The notes beneath the pieces were generated by a model that did no database searches, was not told the origin of the DNA, and worked only from the letters and a program-made list of their open reading frames with translations. From Candidatus Krumholzibacteriia bacterium (GTDB lineage Bacteria; Krumholzibacteriota; Krumholzibacteriia; Krumholzibacteriales; Krumholzibacteriaceae): a DNA stretch of 64,000 nt. The position numbers and the translations under genes are program-made. Where the stretch lies: NCBI GenBank assembly GCA_023131975.1, contig JAGLYV010000016.1, forward strand, positions 20,842-84,841, read 5' to 3'. Shown in pieces: positions 21,227 through 64,000 of the stretch. Position 1 is the stretch's first letter. Each line of letters begins with the position of its first letter.

Positions 21227-21244
21227 TCTGTTGACTCCATCTAC

Positions 21245-33792: not shown

Positions 33793-33802
33793 CGGGAAAA
33801 AT

Positions 33803-36800: not shown

Positions 36801-37051
36801 ATAAATTAAGAGAACAAGGAATGGAAAAACTCGAAGCGATAAAGCAAGGGGGACGGACCAGGTTGAGGCCGATCCTTATGACGACGCTTACGACTACACT
36901 GGGACTTCTTCCACTCGCGATAGGGCTTGGAAAAGGCGCCGAGGTCAGAGCCCCGATGGCGATCACCGTCATAGGCGGATTGACGGTATCGACAGCTCTC
37001 ACCTTGATAGTCATCCCTGTAGTATATTCGATTTTCGACAGAAAAAAGTAA
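33803..37051 (+). CDS. RND efflux permease 1 (AcrB/HAE1-like)
   Basis: ORF 1082 aa; RVTIAMFTVAVILFGFVSFFRLKINLLPELTYPTLTIRTEYPGAAPAEIENLISKPVEEAL; GGIALGVGMLLDNSIVVLENI; GIVVNNAIVLIDLINKLREQG. Confidence 0.95.
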   Translation: MKIIEISISRRVTIAMFTVAVILFGFVSFFRLKINLLPELTYPTLTIRTEYPGAAPAEIENLISKPVEEALGVVKSVNRVSSISRSGQSDVILEFEWGTDMDFAGLDVREKLDALELPLDVQRPSILRFDPSLDPILRFGFSRKPGSVKTAVEDTTETAGEKPSFDEEELKFLRRFAEEEIKKELEAALGVAAVKVSGGLEDEIQILVDQARLAQLDLPIDQLARQIGSENVNLSGGRLEEGTQQYLVRTLNQFQSIEEIQDIIISTKDGKPTYLRDVAIVKHGYKEREAITRLDKVEAVEIALYKEGDANTVAVARAVERKLARVRNILPEDYELVSVYDQSTFITQAVNEVIQAAIIGGILAVIILYFFLQSFWATVIISMSIPVSVIATFNLMYGSDLTLNIMSLGGIALGVGMLLDNSIVVLENIARHREKGKSVLDAAKDGASEVGMAVTASTLTTVAVFLPLVFVKGISGQLFRDQALTVTFSLLASLVVALTLIPMLASLQGRKAEIIPETQRKEPRTRFGRFFRKIYIFIFFTVPISILKAGRKVIGWFVSLIMIVLRPLLRLFQKFYNSLEDRYYGLLDWSLSHRGRIIFIALVMFGLSLMLIPSLGVELIPQLSQGEFGVEFRLPPGTPLEVTSAKLAGVQSVASDIDGVRTTFSVSGSGNRMDANPEQGGENWGKLNVVLGSNARKDDEDRVMNRLRKDLKSIPDLQYKFSRPTLFTFRTPVEIEISGFELRHLNRISKEIVSGLDSSPRFADVKSTIQNGHPEIQIKFDRERAASLGFAVYQIADRVVSKVRGDVATRYSWRDRRIDVLVRAREADRNSIDKIRKLVINPESEKPVTLEAVADVIIATGPGEIRRIDQERVAIVTANLNYGDLGTAAEEINTIIDRVPIPAGFNVSLSGQNREMATSFRSLQFALILAIFLVYLVMASQFESFLHPFVILFTIPLALIGAVFGLWITSSTISVVVFIGLILLAGIVVNNAIVLIDLINKLREQGMEKLEAIKQGGRTRLRPILMTTLTTTLGLLPLAIGLGKGAEVRAPMAITVIGGLTVSTALTLIVIPVVYSIFDRKK

Positions 37052-37112
37052 TTTGGACAGGTATCCTCTCATCTACTCCAGATGAGTCGGGCAGGCAGGA
37101 AAGTCCAGCGAT

Positions 37113-40100
37113 ATGAACCTGACGGAATTCTCATTAAAACGACCTGTATCGATCATGATGATTTTCGTATGTTTCATCGTAATCGGGATAATTTCCTCCC
37201 GTCTGCTTCCAAAAGAGTATTTTCCAGATCTTGACGCTCCCTTCATATTTATCGAAATTCCCTACCCCGGCTCTACTCCAGAGGAGATCGAGAGACAGAT
37301 AACCAAGCCGGCAGAAGAAGTACTGGCTACCATAAGCGGAATCAAGCAAATGGAATCCAACTCCTGGGAGAATGGATGCTGGGTCAGACTCAATTTCGAC
37401 TGGGGTGTCAATACAAACATCAAAGCTCTTGAAGCGAAAGAAAAACTCGATGGAATACGCCACCTTTTCCCGGATGACCTTGAACGGTTTTTTGTCAGAA
37501 AATGGTCCACCTCCGACATGGAGATCATGCAACTGCGTTTATCGAGCAACAGGAACCTGTCGAACTCCTATGACATGCTGGAAAGAAATATAAAAAAGAG
37601 GATCGAGAGACTCGAGGGAATATCCAAGGTCGATCTGTATGGAGTAGAAAAGAAAGAAATAAGAATACAGCTTCTGGCAGACAGGATAATTGAGCACAGG
37701 ATCGATATCAACCACCTCACATCGATACTCAGAAGGGCAAACTTCCTGGTTACTGCCGGCAAGATCACTGATAACAACCAGCGATACGTCGTGCGGCCTC
37801 TGGGCGAATTCGAATCGGTCGAGGAAATCGGAGATATTGTCGTCAACCAGAACAACATCCATCTCCGTGACATCGCAACGATCACATATGACCATCCAAG
37901 GCTTACGTACGGCCGTCACCTGAACAAAAAATATGCTATAGGGCTTGATATCTTCAAGGAATCGGGTGCGAATCTGGTAGAAGTCGCTGACAGGGCTATC
38001 GCCGAGATCGAGAAAATAAAGACCCTCCCGGAAATGGAAGGAATCAGCCTCTACTTCATGGAGAACGCTGCCGAGGGCGTGGAAAGTTCTCTCAATGAAG
38101 TCCTCAAATCGGGGGTCCTCGGCGGATGCCTCGCGATAATCGTCCTGTTCTTTTTCCTCAGGTCTTTGTCATCGACATTCATGGTGGCGCTCGCGGTCCC
38201 CCTCTCACTCCTTATTACCCTGGCATTGATGTTCTTTTCGGGGATTACTCTTAATATCCTGACTATGATGGGGCTGATGCTTGCTGTTGGCATGCTCGTA
38301 GATAATGCGGTAGTAGTCACTGAATCGATACACCGACATCAGACAAATGGGATGGAAAAACTGAAGGCTATAAGAGTCGGAGTAAAAGAAGTGTCTTTAG
38401 CTATAACCGCAGGCACATTGACGACAGCCATCGTATTTTTACCAAACATCGTCAGCCCCAACGATGATGTCTCTATCTACCTGAAACATGTCGGGTTGAC
38501 GATATGCATCGCTCTTGGGGTGTCTCTCGTCCTTGCCCAGACTATAGTCCCCCTTCTTGCGTCGAGGATCAAACCCTCCGCTCCATCGAAAAAGCGAACG
38601 GTCATAGACCGCCTTATAGACAGATACGCCAGAGTACTCGAATGGACGATGAATCATCCAAAAGCAACTATCAGCATAATCATCTTTATTCTAGTCAGTA
38701 TTGCGATACCGATGAAATTCGTCCCGATGGAGATGTTCGATAGCCAGGATGACAGAAGATTCCGTATTCACTATCATATAAACGGTAGCTATACCGTTGA
38801 AAAAGTCGAAGAGGCAGTGGACAAATATGAGGATTTTCTATTTTCCCGTCAGGAAGAATTCGAAATAGAATCTGTTTATTCATATTATCAGGGTAATTAC
38901 GCCTCGTCCACAATTCTACTGACCAAAGGGAAAAAAGCTAAAAAATCGATAGAAGCTATCCAGGAACTTATCCGCAAGGATCTCCCGAAACTTGCAATTG
39001 CCAATCCTTCTTTCGAATGGCAGCCCCCCGGAGGCGGAAGCGAATCTATCAGAATACAACTTATCGGCAAATCCAGCGAATATCTGGTGAGCCTCTCGCG
39101 TGAGGTAGCATGGACACTGTCAAAGATCGAAGGGTTTACCGACGTCCGGTCCGAAGCTGAGATAGGCGACAAGGAAGTACACGTTGTTGTCAACCGTGAC
39201 AGAGCGAGGCAATATGGTTTCTCGACCGCGGAAATCGCCAATGTCGTCTCCGCGGCCATGCGCGGGATAAATCTCCGTCATTTCAGAGATGAACATGGCG
39301 AAGTAGAGATGAGACTTGAGTTCCAGAACACAGATAGACAGTCCCTCGATCAGCTTCAGAACGTTCCGGTAATAAACGAAGCCGGACAATCAATATCTCT
39401 GGCCTCACTCGCCGACTTCAGGGTCAGGCGCGGACCAAGAAACATCCATCGTGAAAACCGTACCACTGCAATCGGCATCAGCGCGAACCTCAAAGGTATA
39501 AAGACAAATGAAGCTCGTAAGAAGATCAAACAGGTTCTTGACAACTATGACTTTCCATCAGGATATCAATGGAATTACGGGCAGAACTTCAGCAATGAAG
39601 AGGAAGCCCTCAACACGATGCTGCTGAACCTGCTTCTTGCGCTTGCGCTGATATACTTCGTCATGGCCGCTCTGTTCGAATCGCTGATCTTCCCCTCTAC
39701 CATCTGGACACAGATCCTCTTCGCTATAGTCGGGGTCTACTGGTTTTTCCTCATTACAGGAACGGACATGACACTGATGGGGATGATCGGAATACTGATA
39801 CTGATCGGTGTTGTCGTTAACAACGGAATAGTCCTGGTCGATCACATCAATCAACTTCGCAACCGTGGGCTTGAGAGACGCAAGGCTATAATGCAGGCGG
39901 GAAGAGACCGTCTGAGACCGATCCTTATGACCGCTGGAACAACAATTCTCAGCCTCGTCCCACTGTGCATAGGCACTACCCTGATCGGTGGGGACGGCCC
40001 CCCATATTTCCCCATGGCCAGGGCAATAGTCGGAGGCCTCACCTTTTCCACTCTCGTGACACTCCTGATTCTTCCTACAATTTACGTTATGCTCGATAAT

Positions 40101-40142
40101 CTGCGTAACTACTCAAAATCAATAGTTCGCAGAAGCAGATGA
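37113..40142 (+). CDS. RND efflux permease 2 (AcrB/HAE1-like)
   Basis: ORF 1009 aa; RPVSIMMIFVCFIVIGIISSRLLPKEYFPDLDAPFIFIEIPYPGSTPEEIERQITKPAEEVL; MGLMLAVGMLVDNAVVVTESI; GVVVNNGIVLVDHINQLRNRG. Confidence 0.95.
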   Translation: MNLTEFSLKRPVSIMMIFVCFIVIGIISSRLLPKEYFPDLDAPFIFIEIPYPGSTPEEIERQITKPAEEVLATISGIKQMESNSWENGCWVRLNFDWGVNTNIKALEAKEKLDGIRHLFPDDLERFFVRKWSTSDMEIMQLRLSSNRNLSNSYDMLERNIKKRIERLEGISKVDLYGVEKKEIRIQLLADRIIEHRIDINHLTSILRRANFLVTAGKITDNNQRYVVRPLGEFESVEEIGDIVVNQNNIHLRDIATITYDHPRLTYGRHLNKKYAIGLDIFKESGANLVEVADRAIAEIEKIKTLPEMEGISLYFMENAAEGVESSLNEVLKSGVLGGCLAIIVLFFFLRSLSSTFMVALAVPLSLLITLALMFFSGITLNILTMMGLMLAVGMLVDNAVVVTESIHRHQTNGMEKLKAIRVGVKEVSLAITAGTLTTAIVFLPNIVSPNDDVSIYLKHVGLTICIALGVSLVLAQTIVPLLASRIKPSAPSKKRTVIDRLIDRYARVLEWTMNHPKATISIIIFILVSIAIPMKFVPMEMFDSQDDRRFRIHYHINGSYTVEKVEEAVDKYEDFLFSRQEEFEIESVYSYYQGNYASSTILLTKGKKAKKSIEAIQELIRKDLPKLAIANPSFEWQPPGGGSESIRIQLIGKSSEYLVSLSREVAWTLSKIEGFTDVRSEAEIGDKEVHVVVNRDRARQYGFSTAEIANVVSAAMRGINLRHFRDEHGEVEMRLEFQNTDRQSLDQLQNVPVINEAGQSISLASLADFRVRRGPRNIHRENRTTAIGISANLKGIKTNEARKKIKQVLDNYDFPSGYQWNYGQNFSNEEEALNTMLLNLLLALALIYFVMAALFESLIFPSTIWTQILFAIVGVYWFFLITGTDMTLMGMIGILILIGVVVNNGIVLVDHINQLRNRGLERRKAIMQAGRDRLRPILMTAGTTILSLVPLCIGTTLIGGDGPPYFPMARAIVGGLTFSTLVTLLILPTIYVMLDNLRNYSKSIVRRSR

Positions 40143-49927: not shown

Positions 49928-52087
49928 TCATATGAGGCCCCATATCTTCCTTGCTGCCCATTCAGCACTGAATAACAAAAGGGTTATCATGAAAAGAATG
50001 AGTTTCGAACTGACCGGCTTCACCTCACTTCTCTCCACCGTATCTGCTGATACCTTCATAATAGTATTCAACCGGCCTGCATCACGCCCTTCCAGCAACC
50101 TGCCACCGGAAAGGGTCGCAATAGCCTTAAGAGTATTCTGGTCACGTGACGTCCTGAGATATTCGATCGAGACCGGTTCAACATGAAAATCCGTTTCCCC
50201 CTGAAACGACTCACCAATATGCGAAATACCTCTGGCCCGGACCCTGTAGTCTCCCGAAGGAAGCGGGCCGATGACAGCCTCGCGGGGACGGCCTGTACCC
50301 TCTGATCTTCCAAAAAGGAAAGTCTCCACAGGCACTGAATCAGCACTCCCAATGGAAAACAGCTCCCCTCTGACATCCCCCACCTCGACTACCCGGGTAG
50401 TGATAAGAGAAAGATCGATTTTCTCCCCGGCCCTGTACACGGGCCTTCCCGGCTGTATCCTGAGTGGAAGAAGATCCTTCTCTATGGCCAGGTATTCGAT
50501 AAGCGAAGAGAACAGAGTCTCATATGCCCTGGCACCATTCTCTCCCGCGAGCTTCCACTGCCAGAGCGGAAAAACCGAAAATGAAGCCACGACACCCTCC
50601 CCTACCCGTTTCAATGCCAGGGCTGGAACGGGTCGTCCTGTTCTGTCGACCGTGAGAGCGGCTTCCGAAGCAGAATCGATTTCCAGTCCAGTAATCATCG
50701 CTGTGAATGGAGGCAGAGCCTCGATTTCCGCAACACTCCTGATCAGAGAAAATATTCTACTGAATGAAAGGCTGCCTGACGCATCAAGGGAGAATTCACC
50801 GGTTTCGATCCGTGTGACCCCTTCCACCTTGAATGGAAGAAGCTGGCGCAACTCCGGCAGGACATTGCGACTGGTCTGTATCGAATGCTCCGACCCCAGG
50901 AATATGACTCCACCGCCCGATCTGACAAACCGATCGACCTCTCCGACAAACACTTGAGATTCGAACAGATCTCTTCCTTCTCCCATTATCAAAAGATCGT
51001 ACCGGGAAAGATCCGACGTATCGTCGAACGCACTCCGGTCACTGAGAAAATGATAATCCCTTGATGGAGACCAGACGACGGCAGCCATTTCGAGACGTTC
51101 AGACCTGTCCACAAGTGTTCTGATAAAGGGCAGGTTCCAGTCCGGCATCCTGTCAATATACAGGATCCTCGTCTTATCCTTTCTCACCGTCATTCGGGCA
51201 ACGGCATTGTTATTTTCGATTATACTTTCTCCAGGCAGAGGCTTGATCCTGACGGATAGGAGCCTGTCCCCCTCGCTTCCCGGTTTATACATCAATGTGG
51301 CGTGGATCTCACCTGAACCTCTTTTTCCGTCAACTGATGCAGAAGCGACAGTGTTTCCGTCTTCAAGGAGCTCAATTTCGATTCGGCCACCCGGGAAACC
51401 TGAACACCCCAAAATACATTCGATCTCATTGACCGTTCCTGTGTAGATAGTGCTCTCGTAGACAAGTTCATCTATCCGCAGGTCCAGCGCCTCGGCTGTA
51501 TCACCGAAACCAATCACGAATACGGGAGCTGGATATCTGGCATCACCGGGGGTTTTCCAATCGGTGATCCTGCCGTCAGAAAGCAGGACCAGGCCGGAAA
51601 CATTCTCCCCCAAGAATCTACTCTGAGCCCATTCCAGCGTTTCGACAATATCTGAACCTTCACCGGATGGATCCGGGAACACGTCTTTATCGATCGAGAC
51701 CCTTCCTGTGGATGCTGAAAATCCGACAACTTCCAGATCAGCATCTTCGAAAACCGACTGAATCGTCCGAAGTACAGCGATAGCCGATTCATGTCTCGAT
51801 CTCCCGTTCTGGTCAGATATTTCCATACTCCTCGAAATATCGATCAGAACCGGGATTACGGGACGACGATGCTCTGAATAAAAATGCATTATTGCGGGAT
51901 CCGCGATAAAGACCAGAAGAGATATAAACCCCAGGATCCTCAGCGTCGCAAGTATACTTTTCTTCCCGTACCCCAGAGGTGGATATGTGGAACGATACAT
52001 GTAAATGGAAAACAGAACGAGGATAACGCCAACAGTTATTCCGGCAGGTGATAGATCGAAAATGATGTTACCGAATTGTCCTGACAT
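49928..52087 (-). CDS. Membrane-anchored VWA-domain protein (BatA/large-membrane-protein-like)
   Basis: N-terminal TM segments; RPVIPVLIDISRSMEISDQNG (MIDAS DxSxS), GLVLLSDGRITDW; C-terminal TM SSKLILFMITLLLFSAEWAARKIWG. Confidence 0.8.
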   Translation of the reverse strand: MSGQFGNIIFDLSPAGITVGVILVLFSIYMYRSTYPPLGYGKKSILATLRILGFISLLVFIADPAIMHFYSEHRRPVIPVLIDISRSMEISDQNGRSRHESAIAVLRTIQSVFEDADLEVVGFSASTGRVSIDKDVFPDPSGEGSDIVETLEWAQSRFLGENVSGLVLLSDGRITDWKTPGDARYPAPVFVIGFGDTAEALDLRIDELVYESTIYTGTVNEIECILGCSGFPGGRIEIELLEDGNTVASASVDGKRGSGEIHATLMYKPGSEGDRLLSVRIKPLPGESIIENNNAVARMTVRKDKTRILYIDRMPDWNLPFIRTLVDRSERLEMAAVVWSPSRDYHFLSDRSAFDDTSDLSRYDLLIMGEGRDLFESQVFVGEVDRFVRSGGGVIFLGSEHSIQTSRNVLPELRQLLPFKVEGVTRIETGEFSLDASGSLSFSRIFSLIRSVAEIEALPPFTAMITGLEIDSASEAALTVDRTGRPVPALALKRVGEGVVASFSVFPLWQWKLAGENGARAYETLFSSLIEYLAIEKDLLPLRIQPGRPVYRAGEKIDLSLITTRVVEVGDVRGELFSIGSADSVPVETFLFGRSEGTGRPREAVIGPLPSGDYRVRARGISHIGESFQGETDFHVEPVSIEYLRTSRDQNTLKAIATLSGGRLLEGRDAGRLNTIMKVSADTVERSEVKPVSSKLILFMITLLLFSAEWAARKIWGLI

Positions 52088-52293: not shown

Positions 52294-52698
52294 TCAAGAG
52301 TTAAAACCAGAACTCCCGCCACCGGGTATGTGATTTTCGAATTTTCCAAAACTCATCACAGCATCTTCGACCGAATCGAAGCTCTCCAGGATAGTCTGGA
52401 ATTCCAGAAGTTCAAAGACTTCATACACGTCGCCTATCATCGAGGCGAGTTTCAGGTCGCCTCCGTTTTCACGGATCTCCTTGATCTCGCTTATGAAAAT
52501 ACCCCATCCGGCCGAACTGATGTAGTTGACGTCACCAAGATCTATCACGATATCGAAACGACCCTTTCTCAGGAGTCTCTTTAGACTTTCCTCGAGTTCT
52601 GAGGAAGTCGTAGTGTCCACATATCCCTTTACAGAGATAACCGATATATCCGGATTATCTTTCGGCTTGGAAAATGAAATGCTGATGTCGTTCATCAC
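52294..52698 (-). CDS. STAS-domain anti-sigma-factor antagonist-like protein
   Basis: ISVISVKGYVDTTTSSELEESLKRLLRKGRFDIVIDLGDVNYISSAGWGIFISEIKEIRENGGDLKLASM. Confidence 0.92.
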   Translation of the reverse strand: MMNDISISFSKPKDNPDISVISVKGYVDTTTSSELEESLKRLLRKGRFDIVIDLGDVNYISSAGWGIFISEIKEIRENGGDLKLASMIGDVYEVFELLEFQTILESFDSVEDAVMSFGKFENHIPGGGSSGFNS

Positions 52699-52714: not shown

Positions 52715-53083
52715 TCAGGTTAGTTTCTTATTTTCGCTATGGTTAAACGCCGCAAGCGCGTTATCCCGGTTATTGTACGGTGTCAACAACGCGTTAAACT
52801 CAAGCAGGTCAAAGACCTCCCTGACATCGGGGCGCATACCGGCAAGTTTAATATCTCCGTTCTGCCGCCTGACTCCCTTGATCTCGCCCACAAAAATCCC
52901 CCATCCGGCTGAACTGATATAATCGACTTTTTCGAGATCCGCAACTATTTTCACGTTGCCCCTCGAAATAAGATCGTTGAACTTGTCTTCCATCAACTGG
53001 GAGGTACCAGAATCCACCAACCCCGCCAGTATAAGGACGACAACGTCATCGATCCGCTCTTCTTCAATCTGAAGTTTATCCAT
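52715..53083 (-). CDS. STAS-domain anti-sigma-factor antagonist-like protein (paralog)
   Basis: VVVLILAGLVDSGTSQLMEDKFNDLISRGNVKIVADLEKVDYISSAGWGIFVGEIKGVRRQNGDIKLAGM. Confidence 0.92.
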   Translation of the reverse strand: MDKLQIEEERIDDVVVLILAGLVDSGTSQLMEDKFNDLISRGNVKIVADLEKVDYISSAGWGIFVGEIKGVRRQNGDIKLAGMRPDVREVFDLLEFNALLTPYNNRDNALAAFNHSENKKLT

Positions 53084-53130: not shown

Positions 53131-54255
53131 TCAGTCCAACAAAGCCTTCAGAAGGATAAAAATACCCTGTCTATCATTCTCCATAAGTCTCTGATTCTTC
53201 TTTGCCTTAGCATAATCACCATTTATCTCAAGAGCTTTTGCGAACGCCTCTCCCGCTTGATCCATTAAAATCTTGCACTTTGCCGTATAAAGTATGCCCA
53301 TCGAGTTCCATGCGTCCGCATAAGTCGGATTCTGATCGATTATCTCTTTCATGCGTTTCAGATAATCCTCTATATCATTTTCCGGCAACCCGTCTTCTTT
53401 TTTCACAAGAAGCAGGTAGAGTTCCAGTAATATATCATCCGCAGGATCGCTGGATGAGGATGAATCGAGACTTTCAAGGACTTCAAGGGCTTCTTCGTAT
53501 TGCTGCGAGGAAAACAGATCCCTGACCGATTCGATCATATTTGAGTCAAGGAACGGGTTGAGCTGCACTGCCCGTTTGATGTTCGTATTGAATTTCTCCT
53601 CGATGTCGCGCGATATCTCGTAGTCCTGCTTGATTATACTATTCAGCAGATAGGCCCTGATGAGGTTGAGATATGGCTCGCCGTAATACAGGTTGAGGTC
53701 GATCGCCCTTCTGAAACAATCGACGGCATTCCTGCACATCTTCCGTTTAAGATAGATCCTGCCGAGAAGATTGTGAATATCCGGATAGTCAGGACTTATT
53801 CCGATACCTGTTTTGACGGCCTCGTACGCGCTATCGTAGTCACCCAGCATATACCACGAGGTCCCGGTGATCATATACGGAGCGGAGTCAGAAGCTCCCT
53901 TGCTGAGAGCAGATTCTGCTTCAGCTATGGCTTCCTCATGAAGGTTTCGTCTGGCCAGTGCCTGGGCAAGCCTCAGATGAGCTCCCGGTTCACTCGAACT
54001 CCGGAGCCTGTCATGCGCATCAAGAAGGAACTGGAATCTCCTCTTGCTGTTCCCGTGTGTTTCCCTTGTAATATCCCTGAGTTGTTCGCTGGAAGGAAGT
54101 TCATCGAATTTTTTCCGTACTTCGTCAAAGACAGAACCGTTTCTGAAGAACGTGCTTCTGATCTCTTTTTCCTCGACCATGAAACTCGTCTGGAGAAAAT
54201 AGGTCTTTCCGTCGTGTTTGATTTCTTCTCTTAGTTCAAGGCTTTCCAAATCCAT
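53131..54255 (-). CDS. TPR-repeat protein
   Basis: Repeats such as APYMITGTSWYMLGDYDSAYEAVKTGIGISPDYPDIHNLLGRIYLKRKMCRNAVDCFRRAIDLN and ADAWNSMGILYTAKCKILMDQAGEAFAKALEINGDYAKA. Confidence 0.88.
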   Translation of the reverse strand: MDLESLELREEIKHDGKTYFLQTSFMVEEKEIRSTFFRNGSVFDEVRKKFDELPSSEQLRDITRETHGNSKRRFQFLLDAHDRLRSSSEPGAHLRLAQALARRNLHEEAIAEAESALSKGASDSAPYMITGTSWYMLGDYDSAYEAVKTGIGISPDYPDIHNLLGRIYLKRKMCRNAVDCFRRAIDLNLYYGEPYLNLIRAYLLNSIIKQDYEISRDIEEKFNTNIKRAVQLNPFLDSNMIESVRDLFSSQQYEEALEVLESLDSSSSSDPADDILLELYLLLVKKEDGLPENDIEDYLKRMKEIIDQNPTYADAWNSMGILYTAKCKILMDQAGEAFAKALEINGDYAKAKKNQRLMENDRQGIFILLKALLD

Positions 54256-54321: not shown

Positions 54322-55071
54322 CTATCCTTCCCCATCTTCCCCGGCCATTATTTCCTCTGTAAGCTTGTAATAATCGAATGCTCCACGCGACAGGGGCGCG
54401 TGTTCGTAAATCGTCCTGTTTGCCCCCGGGGCTTCCTTGAGAGCCGTATTGATCCTGATAGTAGTCTCAAAGACCCTGTCACCAAAATGTTTCCTGACCT
54501 CATCCAGGACCCTTTTGGATATCTTTGTCCTGGCATCATAAAAGGTGGGCAATATCCTGTATTCTATTTGTTTCTTATCGGTTACCCACTTTATTTCATC
54601 TATTGTCTCCATCGTCTGGCGAGCGCCGACCTGGGAAAGATAATCCATCGCTACCGGCACTATTATCTCATCGCAGAAAGCCAGGACATTGATATTAATA
54701 AGGTTCATTGAGGGAGGACAATCGCACAGCACGTAATCACACCCTTTCAGATGTCTCAATGCTTCTCTCAGCCTGTTTTCACGGTTCTCCTTACGCCCGA
54801 GGGCCAGTTCGACCTCTACCAGTCTTCTGCCGCCCGAATCGATCAGGAACAGGTTCTCCCTCACCTGGATGATCTCCACATCCCCGGTCAAGAGCAGGCT
54901 GTCCAACCCCTTTTCACCTGTTACACCGAATGTGACAGCCGAATTCCGCTGTGGATCACAGTCGACAAGTAATACGCGCATACCGCTCAGTGAGAGTCCG
55001 TGGGCCACAGAGATCGCCGTAGTAGTCTTCCCTGTACCACCTTTCATTGTCATTACCGCGAGCCGTTTCAC
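54322..55071 (-). CDS. ParA/Soj-family ATPase
   Basis: MKRLAVMTMKGGTGKTTTAISVAHGLSLSGMRVLLVDCDPQRNSA deviant Walker A; YVLCDCPPSMNLININVLAFCDEIIVPV. Confidence 0.95.
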   Translation of the reverse strand: MKRLAVMTMKGGTGKTTTAISVAHGLSLSGMRVLLVDCDPQRNSAVTFGVTGEKGLDSLLLTGDVEIIQVRENLFLIDSGGRRLVEVELALGRKENRENRLREALRHLKGCDYVLCDCPPSMNLININVLAFCDEIIVPVAMDYLSQVGARQTMETIDEIKWVTDKKQIEYRILPTFYDARTKISKRVLDEVRKHFGDRVFETTIRINTALKEAPGANRTIYEHAPLSRGAFDYYKLTEEIMAGEDGEG

Positions 55072-55075
55072 TTGC

Positions 55076-58000
55076 CTAATCCTTTTTTTTCTTCTTGTTC
55101 CGTCTACTCAATTTTCTGCCGTATTCCTTCCAGCCCATCGACCGTATACTTCTATCCTTATCCTTAGTCTTGTTTGATCCATTTTCAAGGTCGAGTTCGA
55201 CTTCCAGCTCTTCCATCTTCTCCTCGTGTCCGAGCTGAAGCGCTGATACAGCAGGACTGCCGACTTCCGGACCGCCAGTCCGTCCACTCTCTCGCAGATC
55301 GGCGGATGCATCATGCCCGGCGACCTCATTCACGATACCTGTACCTGGCTGCTCCAGACTCTCAAGTCCCTGTACAACTTCGTGTTGTTCGGTATCGTCC
55401 CCATGGTCGTCAATATCCGGCGCATACAGTTCAGCAATCGCCTTCTCCACATCAATATAATTCGGCACAAGTGGTTCAAACCCAAGATCCCTGAAGATCT
55501 TGAATATCGCGGGAGTCATACCGCAGAGAGCGATCTTGCCAGCCCTGCCCGTGATCCTCTGCATGTATTTGATTATCACTCCCCAACCACTGCTGCTTAT
55601 ATATATCACCTCGGACAGATCGATAATGAAATATTTTGAATCTTCTGAGACAGATCTTTCAAGGTAATCTTCAAATTCCGATGTCGTTGCCGCGTCTATC
55701 GCTCCGCCAAGAGCCAGGATAGTCGAATCTCCTTCGGGTGATTCTTTCCTCGATATCTTCACCCTGAGAGTGGTCTCTATACCTTCCACGCCGGAATGGT
55801 CCAGAGAATGATCTGCCGGTTTGGATGAATTTTCTGCCATCTCAGGTATGGCGGGACCCGCCTCCATCCAACTCCCTACTGGAACGCTGAAGTCCTCGAT
55901 CGCTTCAGCCATAATACTGAAAGACCGCATTATGACATCAAATCCCAGGAGATGGAATATGCTGTCCACTTCGGGATCCATACCAAACACCTTTATATCC
56001 CCACCCCACCCTCTCAAGTCATCTATCCTGGAAGCAAACACCCCCCATCCGGCGCTGCTTACATATTCGACACGGGACATATCGACCAGGAGCTTATACG
56101 CACCATTGGATATGAGTTCGCTCATTATCCCTTTCAGCTTGAGACAACTGACGGTATCGATGACTCCATTGAGATTCAACACCGTGATCTCTCCCGCTTC
56201 TCCCACTGTCCCGGCTTCCACAGTCAATGGCGTCCATGGGCTGGTCTCTTCTTTACCGGAATCCAGCCCCATTGATGATACTATGAGCTCCACCTCCGTG
56301 GAATCTCCAGCTACCCGAGTGCCCTCATGAAGTTTCTTCTGCCTTTCATCAAACGGAAGAGAGATGAAATCGACAGCCTCATCTATGCTCTGGCAGTGCA
56401 TGATAATATCCTGGAATCCGAGAAGATCGTAGATGTCAAAGACTTCCGGCGACATCCCCGCAAGGACAACGTCTCCTTTGCTATCTCTCAATACCTTTAC
56501 ACGCCCCGTGAATATTCCCCATCCTCCACTGCTGATATAGGATACTTCAGCCAGGTCGACTACGATCTTTCTGCATCCGTATTCAAATACGTTTTCTATG
56601 ACATTTTCCAGGTCGGAAGCTGAAGATGAATCGAGATGGCCGGTCACTCTGAAAACTGTTATACCATCCCTGTATTCCTCCAGTTCGATTCCGACAACAG
56701 TCCCCCCACTCTCATCAGGGGCAAGGATGTCAGACAGGATCTTCTCGATATCCCCCCGCTCATCGCCGTCATCCACAGAAGAGGGAAGCTGACTCGACAT
56801 GGCAGGAGATTTCTTCCCGGCAGCCACAGATTCTTCCGGAATTCCCTCAACGACCGATTCATCCTGCTCACCTGGACCGGACACGACAAGATCGTCCGTC
56901 TGATGCGCATCCACCTCGGAAAGGATCGTTTCTTCGCCAACAGTCCCCTCGCCGATGGTTTGCGGCTCTCCGACACGGCCGGACTCTTCCTCCGTGGAGA
57001 CAGGCTTGTCACCGTACTGTCCCCCACTGAGAAGCGCCTGGTACTGTTCCTCCGAAACAAATCTGTTTCTCCTGAGATACTCCAACCGCTTTTCATATGT
57101 ATTGAGACGCATCCGCTTGAGCTCTTCGTAGACCAGCGAAGAACTGAGGATATTTTTCCCATCCCTGCCCTCGCTAAATAAGGTAGCGATCCGTTTTGCA
57201 CCGTACCGGGGATTCGCCCTGATAATCTCGAGAAGAGTCTTTCGTTGCTCGGTACTCACCCTTCTTATCTCGTGTTCCTCCCGAAGAGTCTTGTTTTTAA
57301 GTCCCCTTTCACCCATCTCGGCAAGACGTTTCTTGTACCTGTAGTATGTTGAAGGGGACACTTTCATTCTCGTGCAAGCCTCTGCGACGGTCAGTCCCTC
57401 GATATCGACCAGATCCAGCAACTTCTTCCTGATACCGTACAATACATCATCGGCCATCATCTTTTCCTTGATAGCCACGACGGTTATATCATCATTCTGA
57501 GGGAAATCACCCGTAAATTCCTTGATATCCTCGTTAAGCAGGTCCATGAATTTATCGGGAGAATATTTGCCGTTCTCCTTGATCAGCTTTATCAGCCTGT
57601 CCTCTCCATACTGCTCTCTATCACCGTTCATAGCTTCGGTAACGCCATCAGTATAAATAAGGAGCATGTCGTCTTTCTTGAGCTTGATCTTTTCCACGTC
57701 GATCGACCGGCGGAACAGCGTGTCATCAGGCAGACTGATACCGACCGGGAACCCTCTAGGGTTGAGGAAGAACGTCTCATCCGTTTCGGCCCTGAACAGT
57801 ATCATCGGATTGTGCCCCGCACTCGCGTAACTGATGATCCTGTTCTTTGAGTCAAGGATCAGGTAAAAGATCGTAACGAACATCCCCTTCTTCATATCAT
57901 CGGTAACAAAATCGTTCATCCTGGACATCACCTCGGCAGCCGAGAGACTGCCTCGCGCTTCCATGCGGAGAGCCGTCCTTATCATGGTCATGACCAGCGA

Positions 58001-59470
58001 TCCAGGCACTCCCTTACCGGAAACGTCAGCGACGACGATACCAAGTGAATCTTCACCCACATTCACAAAATCGTAATAGTCCCCCCCGACTTCCTTGGCG
58101 GCGCGGTAAAGACTGGAAATATCATATCCTTTGATATCAGGAACTTTTCCGGGAAGAAGTGAATGTTGTATCTCCTGAGCTACCTGCATCTCTTTCTGCA
58201 TTCTCTCCTGCTCAACAACATTCTTCTGAGCATCTCTGAATCTCGCCGTGATCTCGTTAAAAGCGCTGGCAATGGCTCCTATCTCCTCCGGACCATCTAT
58301 ATGTATCCCATCTTCCAGGGCCCCTTCTCCGATGGCTCGTACGCCATCCGTAAGGTCCTGGATAGGCTTGATAAAGACAGATATGAGAAGATAGACAAGG
58401 GCCAGGCCGACCAGCAGGATTCCGGCCAGAATTAAAGTAGTCCGCGGTCTCGGATCGTGAATATTTCCCTCTATCACCTGTCTGGAGACCCCAAGAATGA
58501 TCCGCCCGAGATTAACCGGATGATCGGTCGCCTCATTAAAAAGCATGACGGGATAGTGAAATTCCTCCACATCCTCAACCCCTGTGCCGGTCACGGAAAA
58601 CCATATGCCATCATTTGGGATTGCAGCGCGATCATCCGCCATATCATATGTCTGATTGAATTCTTCCATTACACTGGAAGAGACGATCAGGTCATCATTA
58701 TTAATGATCCTGACATACGTTATCTCGGGAAGCTTCACTATCCTGTCCTGAATATAGTCGTTTATTTCTCTATACTCGGGATCGTAAAGATCATCCAGTA
58801 TCATCGCCTTTTCGCTTTTAGATACGAGCCCCCTCGCAAGGTTGCTCACACCAAGCCATGCCTGCCTCTCCTGAGACTCTATTTCACGTCCCTGATTGAC
58901 GAACTGCACGATCCACAGAAAAAGGACCAGGCTGAAAAGCCCCATTCCCGCCCTGAACGCGAATTTGAACCTGAGCGTTGAAGTCCATCTCAGTTTTAAT
59001 GAAGAAAAAAGAGGCCACTGCGACATTCCCAGCGCGCCCTCAGAAGATTTCGACATGAACAGCCTGTTACCCTGCTCCGAAGACTTATAGTCCAGGTCAT
59101 CCATCAGCCTGTTCATAAGATATATGCCCAGGCCGCCTTTCTTGCCTATCTCCACGTACCGCTCCAGGTCCGGATCCTTTATATCCGACCACTCGAACGC
59201 CTTGCCCCTGTCGAACACATTGATATCTACCCTTCCAGGTTCGGCAAAGACTTCTATCTTTATATCACCATCAATGTCTTTGTAGGCATGTTTGATGATA
59301 TTCGTACACGCTTCATCCATCGCGAGTTTCGTGTTATTAGTCTCACGTTTGGTAAACCCTGCCCGCATACATATATCAGCTATGAAATCCCTGACTTCGC
59401 TGAGATTGTTCTCATCAGCGGGGATTTCAAGTTGAAATTCAGTCTTTTCTTTAAGAATATTTTCTATCAA
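55076..59470 (-). CDS. Multidomain partner-switching protein: RsbW-like kinase, TM-sensor-TM-HAMP, PP2C (SpoIIE/RsbU) phosphatase, transposase-like HTH, three STAS domains
   Basis: Single uninterrupted 1464-aa ORF. Kinase MDEACTNIIKHAY / FDRGKAFEW / KKGGLGIYLMNRLMDDL. PP2C EVGGDYYDF / VADVSGKGVPG / SAGHNPMILF / LIYTDGVTEAMN / NDDITVVAIK. HTH LTVAEACTRMKVSPSTYYRYKKRLAE. STAS cores YISSGGWGIF, YVSSAGWGVF, YISSSGWGVI. Confidence 0.92.
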   Translation of the reverse strand: MIENILKEKTEFQLEIPADENNLSEVRDFIADICMRAGFTKRETNNTKLAMDEACTNIIKHAYKDIDGDIKIEVFAEPGRVDINVFDRGKAFEWSDIKDPDLERYVEIGKKGGLGIYLMNRLMDDLDYKSSEQGNRLFMSKSSEGALGMSQWPLFSSLKLRWTSTLRFKFAFRAGMGLFSLVLFLWIVQFVNQGREIESQERQAWLGVSNLARGLVSKSEKAMILDDLYDPEYREINDYIQDRIVKLPEITYVRIINNDDLIVSSSVMEEFNQTYDMADDRAAIPNDGIWFSVTGTGVEDVEEFHYPVMLFNEATDHPVNLGRIILGVSRQVIEGNIHDPRPRTTLILAGILLVGLALVYLLISVFIKPIQDLTDGVRAIGEGALEDGIHIDGPEEIGAIASAFNEITARFRDAQKNVVEQERMQKEMQVAQEIQHSLLPGKVPDIKGYDISSLYRAAKEVGGDYYDFVNVGEDSLGIVVADVSGKGVPGSLVMTMIRTALRMEARGSLSAAEVMSRMNDFVTDDMKKGMFVTIFYLILDSKNRIISYASAGHNPMILFRAETDETFFLNPRGFPVGISLPDDTLFRRSIDVEKIKLKKDDMLLIYTDGVTEAMNGDREQYGEDRLIKLIKENGKYSPDKFMDLLNEDIKEFTGDFPQNDDITVVAIKEKMMADDVLYGIRKKLLDLVDIEGLTVAEACTRMKVSPSTYYRYKKRLAEMGERGLKNKTLREEHEIRRVSTEQRKTLLEIIRANPRYGAKRIATLFSEGRDGKNILSSSLVYEELKRMRLNTYEKRLEYLRRNRFVSEEQYQALLSGGQYGDKPVSTEEESGRVGEPQTIGEGTVGEETILSEVDAHQTDDLVVSGPGEQDESVVEGIPEESVAAGKKSPAMSSQLPSSVDDGDERGDIEKILSDILAPDESGGTVVGIELEEYRDGITVFRVTGHLDSSSASDLENVIENVFEYGCRKIVVDLAEVSYISSGGWGIFTGRVKVLRDSKGDVVLAGMSPEVFDIYDLLGFQDIIMHCQSIDEAVDFISLPFDERQKKLHEGTRVAGDSTEVELIVSSMGLDSGKEETSPWTPLTVEAGTVGEAGEITVLNLNGVIDTVSCLKLKGIMSELISNGAYKLLVDMSRVEYVSSAGWGVFASRIDDLRGWGGDIKVFGMDPEVDSIFHLLGFDVIMRSFSIMAEAIEDFSVPVGSWMEAGPAIPEMAENSSKPADHSLDHSGVEGIETTLRVKISRKESPEGDSTILALGGAIDAATTSEFEDYLERSVSEDSKYFIIDLSEVIYISSSGWGVIIKYMQRITGRAGKIALCGMTPAIFKIFRDLGFEPLVPNYIDVEKAIAELYAPDIDDHGDDTEQHEVVQGLESLEQPGTGIVNEVAGHDASADLRESGRTGGPEVGSPAVSALQLGHEEKMEELEVELDLENGSNKTKDKDRSIRSMGWKEYGRKLSRRNKKKKKD

Positions 59471-59483
59471 GAATCACTCCGGA

Positions 59484-61364
59484 TTATTTCAGTTTATCGA
59501 TTCTCTGCTGGGCTTCCTCTATATTCCTGCGTACGCTTTCATTGTCAGGATCGATCTCAATAATTCGGTTCCAGACCGCAATAGCTTGCAGATAATCCTT
59601 CTGGGTGAAATGCCTCATACCCTGTATGTATAGCTGTCTGACTTCTTCCTTCTGCTCTTCGGTAAGAGGGGTCATCCGTCTTCTTATCCTGTTGAGGAGA
59701 TCCCTCGCTTCTTCGTGGTCTGGCTGGCGTCGCAGCACTTCCTCGAGAAGATTCGCAGAGTCATCGTATCTTCCCTCACTGAAGGCCTTGAGCGCGTTCT
59801 CGAAAGATTCGATCGTCTGTAGTCGCCTGTTGGCAGCCTTGTAGTTCCTGCCGAGCTCTTCCATCCTGGTGCTTATCCTCTCAGTAGCGGCAATAGCTTC
59901 TGAATTTGACGGATCGATCATCCTGACAATATTCCATTCTCCAAGCGCAGCTGCCAGGCGACCACGGCTTTCATACCCGCCGGCTGCCGTCTTGTGCTGT
60001 GTTATCTGTTCTTCGAGTTTCCCCTCTGTCCTCGCGAGATAATCTGCCGCATCATTGTTGTCAGGGTCCATCTCAAGGACAATCTTCCATTGGGCTCTCG
60101 AAAGGATGTATTCGTTCTCACTATAATATCTGAGGCCAAGGCTGAAATGCTGGTTGATCAAAAGGGATTTCTCTGCTGTTCGTGTCTTTTCCGCCTGGAT
60201 CTCCACGATCCTGGATTCGACCGAACTCATCATCTCTGCTGCCCTTTTGCTCTCAGGATCGTATTCCAGGGCTATTTTGAGTTCATCAAGCGCCCCTTCG
60301 AACTCTTCATCATCAATATTGGACTGCGCAACCTTGATATGTTCGGCCACTCTCGATGCAAATATCTCCGCTATCCGTCGTTCCTCGTCCTTCAGTCTTC
60401 TTTCTTCCTCTATACGCTTCTTGTCTTCAAGCGAATCGCCTATCCTCGCCTGAACAGAGAATGGATGTGAGCTTCCTGCCTCTTCCCTGCTAAAGAAACC
60501 ATAGTCACCACTGTACCTGTTCCATGTAAATCCGACCCCGGCAGTGACCGATTCCGAGTCGAAACCAGCCCTGAAACTGATATATTCACGGTAGTTGTAT
60601 TCCGCACCGAACCTCAGATCATTGTCATCCCTCTCGGGCATATCCATCTGAACGGAGAGATTCATCGAAGATCCGTTTTCAAACCTTTTGTTGTAACCCA
60701 CCCCTATCATGATCGTCCTGTCCACCTTATCGGGAATCGTCACAAGCTTCGTCTCCGCACCCACGATGTCCTGAATATTGCAGCCAAATACCAGGCCTTC
60801 CACCATGTCCTGATGATACAGAAGTCCGATATCGAGTCCCGTACCGGTATCCGAATAATCTCCTATACGCTGGTTTAATATTTTTACCGACGTTCCGAGG
60901 GAGAATCTTCCGAATTTCTGCCATGGAAGGTCAAAGGCATAGGAAAGTATCATCTGGGTTTCCCTGTACGAAATCTCGCCAGTCTCGACACTGTAACTGT
61001 CGAATTCCCTGATCCCTCCAGTCCCAACATTCATCAGACCCAATCCGAACGCCCCGAGCGACAAAGTCGGCCAGGCAAGACCGATGAAGTCGTAGCTGGC
61101 ATCAGCAAAACCGGAAAACAACTGTATATGGTTGCCCATTATCGCCGGGTATGGATTAAGCTTCAGCGCGGCAGGATTATAGTAGATCACCGAAGGGTCG
61201 TCACCGATAGCAACAAAGCATCCACCCATAGAGATCGCCCTGGACCCGGCGCCAAGAGTAAATATTGACCTCGTCCCCCCCGTTCCATCCTGAGACCTGA
61301 CAATGCCGGGGACAGTCAGGACAACCAAAAACACAAATATTGTAAGTACGATCCTTTTCATCAC
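59484..61364 (-). CDS. PorV/PorQ-like outer-membrane protein fused to C-terminal TPR repeats
   Basis: SIFTLGAGSRAISMGGCFVAIGDDPSVIYYNPAAL (PorV-like N-terminus), barrel strands, then TPR units such as YIQGMRHFTQKDYLQAIAVWNRIIEIDPDNESVRRNIEEAQQRI. Confidence 0.85.
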   Translation of the reverse strand: MMKRIVLTIFVFLVVLTVPGIVRSQDGTGGTRSIFTLGAGSRAISMGGCFVAIGDDPSVIYYNPAALKLNPYPAIMGNHIQLFSGFADASYDFIGLAWPTLSLGAFGLGLMNVGTGGIREFDSYSVETGEISYRETQMILSYAFDLPWQKFGRFSLGTSVKILNQRIGDYSDTGTGLDIGLLYHQDMVEGLVFGCNIQDIVGAETKLVTIPDKVDRTIMIGVGYNKRFENGSSMNLSVQMDMPERDDNDLRFGAEYNYREYISFRAGFDSESVTAGVGFTWNRYSGDYGFFSREEAGSSHPFSVQARIGDSLEDKKRIEEERRLKDEERRIAEIFASRVAEHIKVAQSNIDDEEFEGALDELKIALEYDPESKRAAEMMSSVESRIVEIQAEKTRTAEKSLLINQHFSLGLRYYSENEYILSRAQWKIVLEMDPDNNDAADYLARTEGKLEEQITQHKTAAGGYESRGRLAAALGEWNIVRMIDPSNSEAIAATERISTRMEELGRNYKAANRRLQTIESFENALKAFSEGRYDDSANLLEEVLRRQPDHEEARDLLNRIRRRMTPLTEEQKEEVRQLYIQGMRHFTQKDYLQAIAVWNRIIEIDPDNESVRRNIEEAQQRIDKLK

Positions 61365-61369
61365 AGCAC

Positions 61370-64000
61370 CTATTTAGCTACAGCTATCTTGAACAGGGCG
61401 GACTTTCCACCAGCCTGGACCTTGCAGATATAGACCCCGTTCCTGACAATCTCACCACGCCCGTTTCTGCCATCCCATTCCATCTCCCAGAGAGTCCCCC
61501 CAATATCACCGGTAGCACCCTGCTCTCCGGCGGGAATCTCTTTTTTCCAGACGAGTGCTCCGAGCAGATCGTATATCATCACGCTGACCGAAGAGTCGCT
61601 CGTGAGGAAATAAGTAATCTTTGTAGTCTCGGATCCCGCCCTGAATGGATTGGGATAATTATGCACATATTCCTCGAAATCAGCAGCCATCACCGTAAGA
61701 GGCCCGGTCTCAAAATGCCCCGCAATATCATCTCCGCTTCCCCCACCCCAAACGACCGCGACAACCCCCTGATCGGCACTTCTACTGAAAACTACATCAG
61801 CACTTGACGACAGTTCCAACCCAAGACTACCCGAGGGTGCTCCGTCAGCAATATCTATACTGACAAGCATCGTATCCCAGGTCATGATCCCGCCCCCTGA
61901 AGGGTCAATGGTGTATTTTCCCGAAACAGGAAGCAATGGAACGGGGTTTACCGCCCCCGCTGTCGCGACATACTGAATCCCCTCCGCGTCGATATACAAC
62001 GCCGACACATATCTCGAAGGATCCGAATGGGGATTTCCTCTTCCGTCAGTCACGGTGACAAAGGCCGTATCAAGCCCGGCAGTATATGTGGACCTGTTCA
62101 CCAGAATAAGCTTGAGAACAGGTACGCCTTCAGCTCCCTGGGGTACGACGTACGGCGGAATAGTGTCCGCCGACGATATATTGAGCATCGAAATAGCACC
62201 TTCTTCAGTCGTCACACTAATGGGAATCTCGTCGATCCCGGTATCAACAGGTTCTCTGCTGTTTTCGTCTACAGGATAAGGTTCCGCGATCTTTACTGTG
62301 ATTATCCCTGGTGGAGCGGCAGTACCAGGAGCAATCAGATCCCACGTGACGGACTGTCCCGGCACAAATGGTTTTCTGAAAGTCTCGCCCCCTGAAAGTG
62401 AATATTCCGCGTTACCTGGAAGTACGATTTCAAGACGGGCACCTGTTGTATCGATACCGGCAACACCGGTATTGGTAACCATGGCCTCCACCGTGAAGGG
62501 TAGATCGACGGATAATTTTCCTTCGATAGCCTGAGGCGGTCCGGCAATGAACGCGGTCAAGTCAAGGCGAGCGCTCTCTACGACTGTCACATCCAGAGGG
62601 CTGCTGCATCCGATGTATTCCAGACCGGAATTCATGTCTATCCCCCCGGTCGAGATCGTAAACGATTCTCCACTTACAGCGCTCGAACCGGTTTCGACTG
62701 TCCAGATAACCTGTTTCAGCCCTCCTGTTGCGTCGCCAGTCTGTACTACAGCATTTCCTGATATCGAGAATCCGAACGGTACGGTCAGTTCGACCCATGT
62801 GGAGCCGGAATTCAATGAAGGCAGGAATTCCGAGCGTACAGTGAATGACTGCTCCGTAGATAACACGCCATCTACGGCTCCTGAAGGGGCCGTGATCGTG
62901 ATCTCACACTGAGCGGAGCCTGCGGCATCTTCAATGAAGACTTTTTCCGTATCGGCAGCCTGGAGCACGAAAGCCGTCTCCATCATATTCACATCTCTCG
63001 GAGGTCGGCTGATAATGACAGAAACAGGCCTCGCCAGAGGCGCCGCGATATCGGGAGCCGTCAATGTCCATAATATTTCTTCATCGATGGAAAACGATCT
63101 GATAAGCGAGTCCGCGTCCGGATACACTCGTGAAAAACCAGCGGGAAGGTCCAGAGTGATCTGTCCAGAACCATCATCTCCGGCCTCTCCCATGTTATGA
63201 ACCGCGGCTGTCAAAACGAATTCCTGGAACGTCGACAATGTATCATCCAATGCACCGACTGGAGCGGTGATACTCACTTCGCACACAAGGACAGCAGCGA
63301 CCTGAACCTGAAGATTCTCTATAGATTCAATGGCCTGTATCGGAGGGACTTCTTCTCCCGTATTCACCGATACAGCAGTAGTTATAGCGGCTGAAAGTAT
63401 CTCTACTCCAGTGACAGCCGACTGGACGTTGAATACAAAAATACCCTGGGCCCCTGAGGCCAGGTCCGGAGTGGTCAAATCAGGAGTGATGGTCGCTGCA
63501 CCATTAGTCGACAGGTCTACCGCGACTTGTTCCAGATCATCTCCCCCCGTATTCTCAACGGTTACGGTCAATTTGAATTCCTGGCCGATATTCACAATCG
63601 AAGTATTTGGAAACATGAAACTATTTGGAGCGTCACTTGTCACCGAGATGATTCGCAATCCGGATGGCTCCCTGACCCTGACCCCGGAATCACCGGTTGA
63701 GATAAGGATCCCCCTGGCCGGTTCATTCTCGTCAGACCATCTGATCGAGCCATCTATCCTGACCTGACCGGTATCGATCCCCGTTGATGATACAACAAAG
63801 ACGAAAGAATCGGCCTCCCCCGACTCCAGGATCATATCGCCCGCTCCAGAGGCAAACCCCTCGGGAGGAATGACAAGATAATCGGCAAGCGGATTTCCGT
63901 CGAGAGAGAAAACCAGATCTGTTGATGCCGGATCTTCTACACTGATCGGAGCATCACCCGAGTTGAGCAAGTCGATCCTCACTATCCAGTCAGTCGTCTG
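61370..64000 (-). CDS. Large exported CARDB/DUF11-like repeat protein with FlgD-like C-terminus; N-terminus off the window end
   Basis: Repeated Ig-like modules (VTAPVGALDDTLSTFQEFVLTAAVHNMGEAG; ITAPSGAVDGVLSTEQSFTVRSEF; GPPQAIEGKLSVDLPFTVEAMVTNTG); C-terminal HNYPNPFRAGSETTKITYFLTSDSSVSVMIYDLLGALVWKKEI...GVYICKVQAGG. Frame stays open to position 64000 (QTTDWIVRIDLLN), so the track start at 63982 is internal. Confidence 0.8.
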   Translation of the reverse strand, partial: QTTDWIVRIDLLNSGDAPISVEDPASTDLVFSLDGNPLADYLVIPPEGFASGAGDMILESGEADSFVFVVSSTGIDTGQVRIDGSIRWSDENEPARGILISTGDSGVRVREPSGLRIISVTSDAPNSFMFPNTSIVNIGQEFKLTVTVENTGGDDLEQVAVDLSTNGAATITPDLTTPDLASGAQGIFVFNVQSAVTGVEILSAAITTAVSVNTGEEVPPIQAIESIENLQVQVAAVLVCEVSITAPVGALDDTLSTFQEFVLTAAVHNMGEAGDDGSGQITLDLPAGFSRVYPDADSLIRSFSIDEEILWTLTAPDIAAPLARPVSVIISRPPRDVNMMETAFVLQAADTEKVFIEDAAGSAQCEITITAPSGAVDGVLSTEQSFTVRSEFLPSLNSGSTWVELTVPFGFSISGNAVVQTGDATGGLKQVIWTVETGSSAVSGESFTISTGGIDMNSGLEYIGCSSPLDVTVVESARLDLTAFIAGPPQAIEGKLSVDLPFTVEAMVTNTGVAGIDTTGARLEIVLPGNAEYSLSGGETFRKPFVPGQSVTWDLIAPGTAAPPGIITVKIAEPYPVDENSREPVDTGIDEIPISVTTEEGAISMLNISSADTIPPYVVPQGAEGVPVLKLILVNRSTYTAGLDTAFVTVTDGRGNPHSDPSRYVSALYIDAEGIQYVATAGAVNPVPLLPVSGKYTIDPSGGGIMTWDTMLVSIDIADGAPSGSLGLELSSSADVVFSRSADQGVVAVVWGGGSGDDIAGHFETGPLTVMAADFEEYVHNYPNPFRAGSETTKITYFLTSDSSVSVMIYDLLGALVWKKEIPAGEQGATGDIGGTLWEMEWDGRNGRGEIVRNGVYICKVQAGGKSALFKIAVAK

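Follow-up and report, generated by a model that had tools for sequence, protein, structure and literature searches.

Rv1364c of Mycobacterium tuberculosis carries PAS, PP2C, kinase and STAS domains on one polypeptide, and Ser600 of its STAS domain is phosphorylated and dephosphorylated by the protein's own domains (PMC9138534, a review). SypE of Vibrio fischeri arranges the same types of kinase and PP2C phosphatase around a receiver (REC) domain and acts on the free protein SypA (PMC3610818). Here we describe a gene in a 64,000-nucleotide stretch of DNA (hereafter the window) of a Candidatus Krumholzibacteriia bacterium (GCA_023131975.1, contig JAGLYV010000016.1, positions 20,842 to 84,841), encoding a kinase, a membrane sensor, a PP2C phosphatase, a helix-turn-helix (HTH) region and three STAS domains in one chain of 1464 amino acids. 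Judging from sequence, we consider it reasonably probable that this protein is a membrane sensor kinase/phosphatase which acts on free as well as tethered STAS domains and has its output on an envelope operon.

As in Rv1364c (PDB 3ke6), a PP2C phosphatase, an RsbW-type kinase, STAS and a sensor domain are joined in one chain. The original prediction for this locus drew its comparison from Bacillus and SypE only; with Rv1364c as precedent, the one-chain principle cannot be regarded as new. However, Rv1364c has 653 amino acids, one STAS domain, a PAS sensor, no HTH and no described membrane anchor, in the order PAS-PP2C-kinase-STAS, whereas the 1464-residue protein has three STAS domains, an HTH, a Cache-like sensor and free STAS partners, and its kinase is N-terminal, before the first transmembrane segment (TM1), set apart by TM1-Cache-TM2-HAMP. 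SypE shares the conserved kinase asparagine, but has a central REC domain instead of TM-Cache-TM-HAMP, no HTH and a single, separate STAS protein. The HAMP and PP2C region matches the profile of SiaA from the SiaA/SiaC system of Pseudomonas aeruginosa (PMC7647112; PDB 6k4e). The RsbU/RsbV/RsbW and SpoIIE/SpoIIAA/SpoIIAB systems of Bacillus involve the same three enzyme and substrate families and the same acceptor serine position; they differ in consisting of separate proteins, in Asp57 of SpoIIAA, which is serine in the 1464-residue protein, and in a dedicated sigma factor, which was not found here by the searches given below.

Compared to Rv1364c and SypE, the membrane-borne Cache-HAMP input, the kinase across TM1 and the transposase-type HTH look new, as do the three STAS copies, the presence of free beside tethered STAS partners, and the type IX secretion setting. 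Among the papers searched for tandem STAS domains together with a kinase or PP2C, none gave a bacterial precedent.

Domain layout and conservation of the reading frame

Domains were assigned by Pfam and NCBIfam profiles, hydropathy and AlphaFold2 models. The profiles confirm the predicted uninterrupted minus-strand open reading frame with kinase, PP2C and three STAS domains, and the domain borders given earlier proved correct to a few residues. The frame starts with TTG, with GGAG 6 bases 5' of it, and contains no internal stop codon. Its features are as follows.

55076..59470, minus strand: whole gene (P0001), 1464-amino-acid kinase / sensor / PP2C / HTH / 3xSTAS protein
59048..59425, minus strand: RsbW/SpoIIAB-like HATPase, residues 16-141 (PF13581, HATPase_c_2, E 1.7e-27)
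58895..58969, minus strand: TM1, residues 168-192 (hydropathy peak about 170-192, modelled helix 166-225)
58442..58894, minus strand: extracytoplasmic sensor, probably single Cache, residues 193-343
58370..58441, minus strand: TM2, residues 344-367 (hydropathy peak about 341-373, modelled helix 341-382)
58241..58387, minus strand: HAMP, residues 362-410 (PF00672, 1.3e-5)
57461..58123, minus strand: PP2C/SpoIIE phosphatase, residues 450-670 (PF07228, 7.7e-50 at 473-668)
57056..57457, minus strand: transposase-type tandem HTH without DDE domain, residues 672-805 (all-helical in both models)
56345..56701, minus strand: STAS1, residues 924-1042; S981 is the equivalent of SpoIIAA Ser58 (codon 56528-56530)
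55886..56227, minus strand: STAS2, residues 1082-1195; S1139 is the equivalent of SpoIIAA Ser58 (codon 56054-56056)
55421..55765, minus strand: STAS3, residues 1236-1350; S1293 is the equivalent of SpoIIAA Ser58 (codon 55592-55594)
55079..55180, minus strand: conserved basic C-terminal tail, residues 1431-1464 (IRxxGWxxYGxxL, then K/R-rich)

The kinase displays the motifs of a GHKL serine kinase, namely the N-box (D52-E53..N57), D87-x-G89 and GGLG (112-115), invariant in 16 homologues. The four metal-binding aspartates of PP2C (D464, D482, D608 and D661) are all conserved in homologues of several phyla, and its acidic motifs are invariant among homologues; conservation across phyla is seen for the kinase, PP2C and HAMP motifs alike.

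According to hydropathy and the first AlphaFold2 model, TM1 and TM2 flank a periplasmic helix-plus-sheet domain; the domain arrangement in this model is not reliable, given a predicted template modelling score (pTM) of 0.47 at a mean predicted local distance difference test score (pLDDT) of 77. The sensor segment is modelled as a helix and five strands, and is the folded part with the lowest conservation. It is probably a single Cache domain, because the matching segment of the FCPU426 homologue (L069) is recognized as sCache_3_2 (2.8e-10); the original prediction had left the identity of this segment open. A helical linker connects HAMP to PP2C as a long helix (395-438) in the model, which fits a general mechanism described for PP2C, its control by HAMP and other sensors through a helical linker (PMC12143880).

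Within residues 681-781 of the HTH, several transposase-type Pfam models match at 1e-6 to 1e-4, and an NCBIfam model of the IS481 transposase N-terminus matches 681-794 (2.2e-15, well under the whole-protein cut-off). The IS481/IS630 transposase profiles are matched in their N-terminal parts only, and a linker and the STAS domains then follow. It is conceivable that the protein is a membrane-tethered transcription regulator, with the HTH as DNA-binding output and kinase, PP2C and STAS merely modulating it. The HTH is conserved across phyla together with the core, has a net positive charge in all homologues and resembles the DNA-binding parts of IS481/IS630, as this idea would have it. We nonetheless find it very doubtful, as homologue L077 has a degenerate HTH that Pfam does not recognize while its kinase and PP2C are intact, and as transposase-type HTHs can also mediate protein contacts.

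The three STAS stretches match Pfam at 1.7e-50. A second model (mean pLDDT 65) displays three distinct STAS folds; the linkers between them are acidic, fast-evolving and of pLDDT <50. STAS3 is the fastest evolving of the three tethered domains. The C-terminal tail has a net charge of +11 and a ratio of non-synonymous to synonymous change (pN/pS) of 0.15, and its motif is found in the genome only in this gene.

The same domain order, which the original prediction had proposed to look for, runs from the kinase to STAS3 in one frame in 20 Krumholzibacteriota genomes, the window's included (families f1, f2 and f7). The kinase-sensor-PP2C-HTH core is present in 31 of the 80 genomes of the phylum that were examined: in 19 of 20 in the window's own family f1, 5 of 5 in f2, 5 of 6 in f7, the only one in f8, 1 of 4 in f6, and none in f3, f4 and f5. 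Relative to a genome of the same genus, pN/pS is 0.18 overall, 0.01-0.18 for individual domains, and 0.30-0.85 for the linkers. Purifying selection acts on every domain, and the contrast between domains and linkers is what a multidomain protein translated as one chain should show. A chimera, a frameshift or a lone assembly artefact, considered at the time of the original prediction, can be rejected: the single frame recurs in 20 orthologues, and selection is purifying to either side of each junction.

One assembly (G036) carries the halves of the gene far apart (L046, L047), each interrupted by a gap of 100 N, probably owing to a scaffolding error. Since these gaps lie inside both halves, the case was rejected as evidence of a naturally split protein.

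The operon and its free STAS partners

The gene is part of a conserved order that consists of a giant protein of the type IX secretion system (T9SS), a PorV/TPR protein, the 1464-residue protein, a ParA-type ATPase, a TPR protein, STASb, STASa, a membrane protein and a lamin-tail-domain protein. The neighbours are listed from the upstream end.

61370..63982, minus strand: giant type IX-secreted surface protein, C-terminal part (TIGR04183, 7.8e-9, above cut-off)
59484..61364, minus strand: PorV-family outer-membrane protein with C-terminal TPRs (NF033709, 1.3e-29, above cut-off)
54322..55071, minus strand: ParA/BcsQ-type ATPase, directly downstream of the 1464-residue gene (PF13614, 1.8e-35; synteny conserved)
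53131..54255, minus strand: TPR protein (synteny conserved)
52715..53083, minus strand: free STAS protein STASb (position conserved; groups near STAS2 in the tree)
52294..52698, minus strand: STASa, a free STAS protein and candidate for the original substrate (PF01740, 2.3e-19)
49928..52087, minus strand: conserved operon membrane protein (synteny; VWA-like LIDISRS motif by eye)

The giant protein has a sorting tail and reaches up to 3300 amino acids in relatives; in the window its reading frame is cut by the contig end. The PorV/TPR gene lies directly upstream of the core, here as well as in the other families and phyla examined. For the membrane protein, no Pfam or NCBIfam match was obtained.

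Two free STAS genes, which the original prediction did not include, are found in the operon wherever the contig extends far enough; the operon offers five STAS domains (three tethered, two free), not three. This bears on the earlier proposal that the tethered STAS domains, three in number, form a multi-site phospho-counter that is read within the same protein as a closed circuit. The part of it that places both enzymes and three candidate substrates behind one transmembrane sensor stands, in view of the motifs, the acceptor serines and the conserved fusion. The closed unit, by contrast, is not borne out, with two free STAS genes in the operon and unfused homologues adjoining a free, STASa-like STAS gene. 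A counter would require intact acceptor serines, and all three are present in families f1, f2 and f7 and evolve under purifying selection, but homologues in the same context do without fused copies, and the copies evolve at strongly different rates (STAS3 fast), unlike equal counting sites. We therefore consider the phospho-counter quite unlikely.

The core stops behind the HTH in FCPU426, and likewise in G039, which belongs to family f6 within the phylum of the window; in both, a single free STAS gene lies directly downstream. By BLAST, the FCPU426 protein (L070) scores 124 bits to STASa versus 102 and 88 bits (STASb, tethered domains), and the G039 protein 139 bits versus 99 and 90. A candidate core-STAS fusion in FCPU426 (956-amino-acid open frame) was rejected, as its translation has two in-frame stops between core and STAS. 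The Calditrichota homologue (L071:6088-10092) carries an acidic linker and a TPR array after the HTH in place of STAS, and the C-terminus is short in the group L072-L076. G079 (f7) is without tethered STAS, ATPase and TPR gene, has kept two free STAS genes, and its core frame is broken near the HTH. The conserved kinase-sensor-PP2C-HTH core thus varies in what is attached at its C-terminus, with tethered STAS domains, TPRs, a short end, or a stop after the HTH beside a free STAS gene. We infer that free STAS came first as partner and that tethered copies were added later, the three fused copies probably being a lineage-specific addition. The STAS tree displays firm grouping only for orthologous STAS2 and for orthologous STAS3.

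Elsewhere in the window's genome (L006; contig C105, 1691-2584), a PP2C-to-HTH match (query 421-723, 32%) is interrupted by four stop codons, and is perhaps a decayed paralogue.

Fold matches and a proposed mechanism

The kinase fold matches RsbW of B. subtilis with a target TM-score of about 0.9. The best matches of the STAS folds are SpoIIAA chains from SpoIIAB-SpoIIAA complexes, and stressosome STAS domains match less well. Tandem STAS domains could oligomerise, and a stressosome-like scaffold free of phosphorylation switching might be thought of; given the SpoIIAA matches and an acceptor serine that never varies, we regard it as highly improbable. A serine occupies the position of SpoIIAA Ser58 in 63 of 63 STAS domains of the operon family, tethered and free. 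The equivalents of Ser58 and Asp57 were located by alignment to the B. subtilis SpoIIAA sequence. As far as sequence can tell, the kinase, PP2C and STAS domains have the hallmarks of a partner-switching module.

In Foldseek searches with the core and phosphatase region, 3ke6 (Rv1364c) is the top match, 6k4e (SiaA) is second for the phosphatase, and 5ucg is found as well; by sequence, 3ke6 ranks second among PDB matches. The equivalog score of SpoIIAA (TIGR02886) is 125.5 bits at a cut-off of 114.75, a value reached only by summing over three domains. The SiaA equivalog (NF038263) scores 74.7 bits, below its cut-off of 700; SiaA is not known to carry a kinase.

This resemblance to Rv1364c, in fold and sequence rank as well as in domain content, may suggest sigma control of the same kind, with the kinase doubling as anti-sigma factor and the tethered STAS domains competing for it. 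Several sigma-70 family proteins are encoded in the genome. However, no sigma factor scores above the SigB/F/G cut-off and none was seen in the operon; the kinase remains far under the RsbW equivalog cut-offs (NF003144, 83.2 versus 145 bits; TIGR01924, 73.8 versus 155), and a separate stand-alone RsbW-like gene exists in the genome. Sigma control of this kind thus appears unlikely.

Because free STAS genes are present in the operon, and because STASa resembles the sole STAS partner of the unfused homologues, we favour a membrane-borne switch acting on both free and tethered STAS domains. Rv1364c and SypE show that such domain pairings act on STAS proteins. From the data we infer catalysis, phosphorylation targets and STAS action on envelope products in the following way. 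The periplasmic Cache-like domain would signal via TM2, HAMP and the helical linker to PP2C and so shift the balance of kinase and phosphatase. In STAS domains, the SSxGWG loop would receive a phosphate on its second serine from the N-terminal kinase, and PP2C would remove this phosphate. Putative substrates are free STASa (probably the original one), free STASb, and the three STAS domains tethered through disordered linkers. In their unphosphorylated state, the STAS domains may act on products of the envelope operon (ParA-type ATPase, TPR protein, PorV/TPR), and not solely on a sigma factor. In fused form, the three copies might raise the local substrate concentration, or compete with the free STAS proteins for the enzymes.

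Several points weigh against this mechanism. The residue aligned to SpoIIAA Asp57 is serine or asparagine, and catalytic details may for this reason differ from the SpoIIAA case. No free STAS gene adjoining the core was seen in the lineages L071-L077, and the STAS tree, built on few columns and with its outgroup on a very long branch, cannot order the duplications. A sigma factor is what the closest known single-chain protein controls, and the genome does encode sigma factors.

A second PorV/TPR operon and other loci

In Bacteroidota, PorV serves as a shuttle protein of type IX secretion (PMC5562754). The genome of the window encodes a PorV-family protein, cargo with a sorting tail, and SprA of the type IX translocon. 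It also contains a second PorV/TPR operon (L048:2-13669; contig C94, 18001-31668), with genes for a giant T9SS-sorted protein, a PorV/TPR protein, a HAMP-PP2C protein, a kinase-STAS fusion of 360 amino acids and a histidine kinase. This order of five genes recurs in G001, G007, G009, G010, G011, G013 and G016, and more distantly in G033. Giant T9SS protein, PorV/TPR, HAMP-PP2C, kinase and STAS are encoded together in both operons; in the second one, however, the kinase and one STAS domain form a fusion protein, PP2C has a gene of its own, and there is an additional histidine kinase. The same three activities are thus packaged in two ways beside PorV/TPR genes, and the C94 locus supports the envelope link independently as a second case.

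Because the linkage to PorV/TPR and cargo genes repeats, it suggests a control layer for type IX secretion. None of the papers searched treats type IX secretion together with partner switching; the only one to contain both terms has one of them solely in the title of a reference. As a tentative extension, which we think unlikely, dedicated partner switches could govern PorV/TPR operons for giant T9SS proteins; in one Krumholzibacteriota clade, a single sensor of a tethered array would set the phosphorylation of three STAS domains in cis and two in trans, for a graded or cooperative read-out of surface-protein export. This locus widens the range of single-chain partner switches, from a single mycobacterial protein to a membrane sensor bearing a triple STAS array. 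A natural series is found next to one type of gene cluster, comprising fused kinase-PP2C with free STAS, fused kinase-STAS with separate PP2C, and the fully fused form; it makes testable whether tethering of the substrate alters the behaviour of the switch.

Contig C135 of the same genome (L052:8506-11107) encodes another kinase-STAS fusion with a histidine kinase after it, and no PorV or PP2C matches nearby; similar pairs are found at L107 and L108. Contig C56 (L049:1359-4226) carries separate GAF-PP2C and stand-alone RsbW-like genes; STAS is matched weakly at 4249-4530, and the whole looks like a conventional partner-switch module.

In the window itself, a papain-family cysteine protease (24633-27152, minus strand) has a FlgD-Ig-like C-terminal stretch, as in type IX cargo here. 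Two ordinary RND efflux gene sets are located at 18140-23955 (minus strand) and 32740-40142 (plus strand), one with an outer-membrane efflux protein, the other with two tandem AcrB-type pumps.

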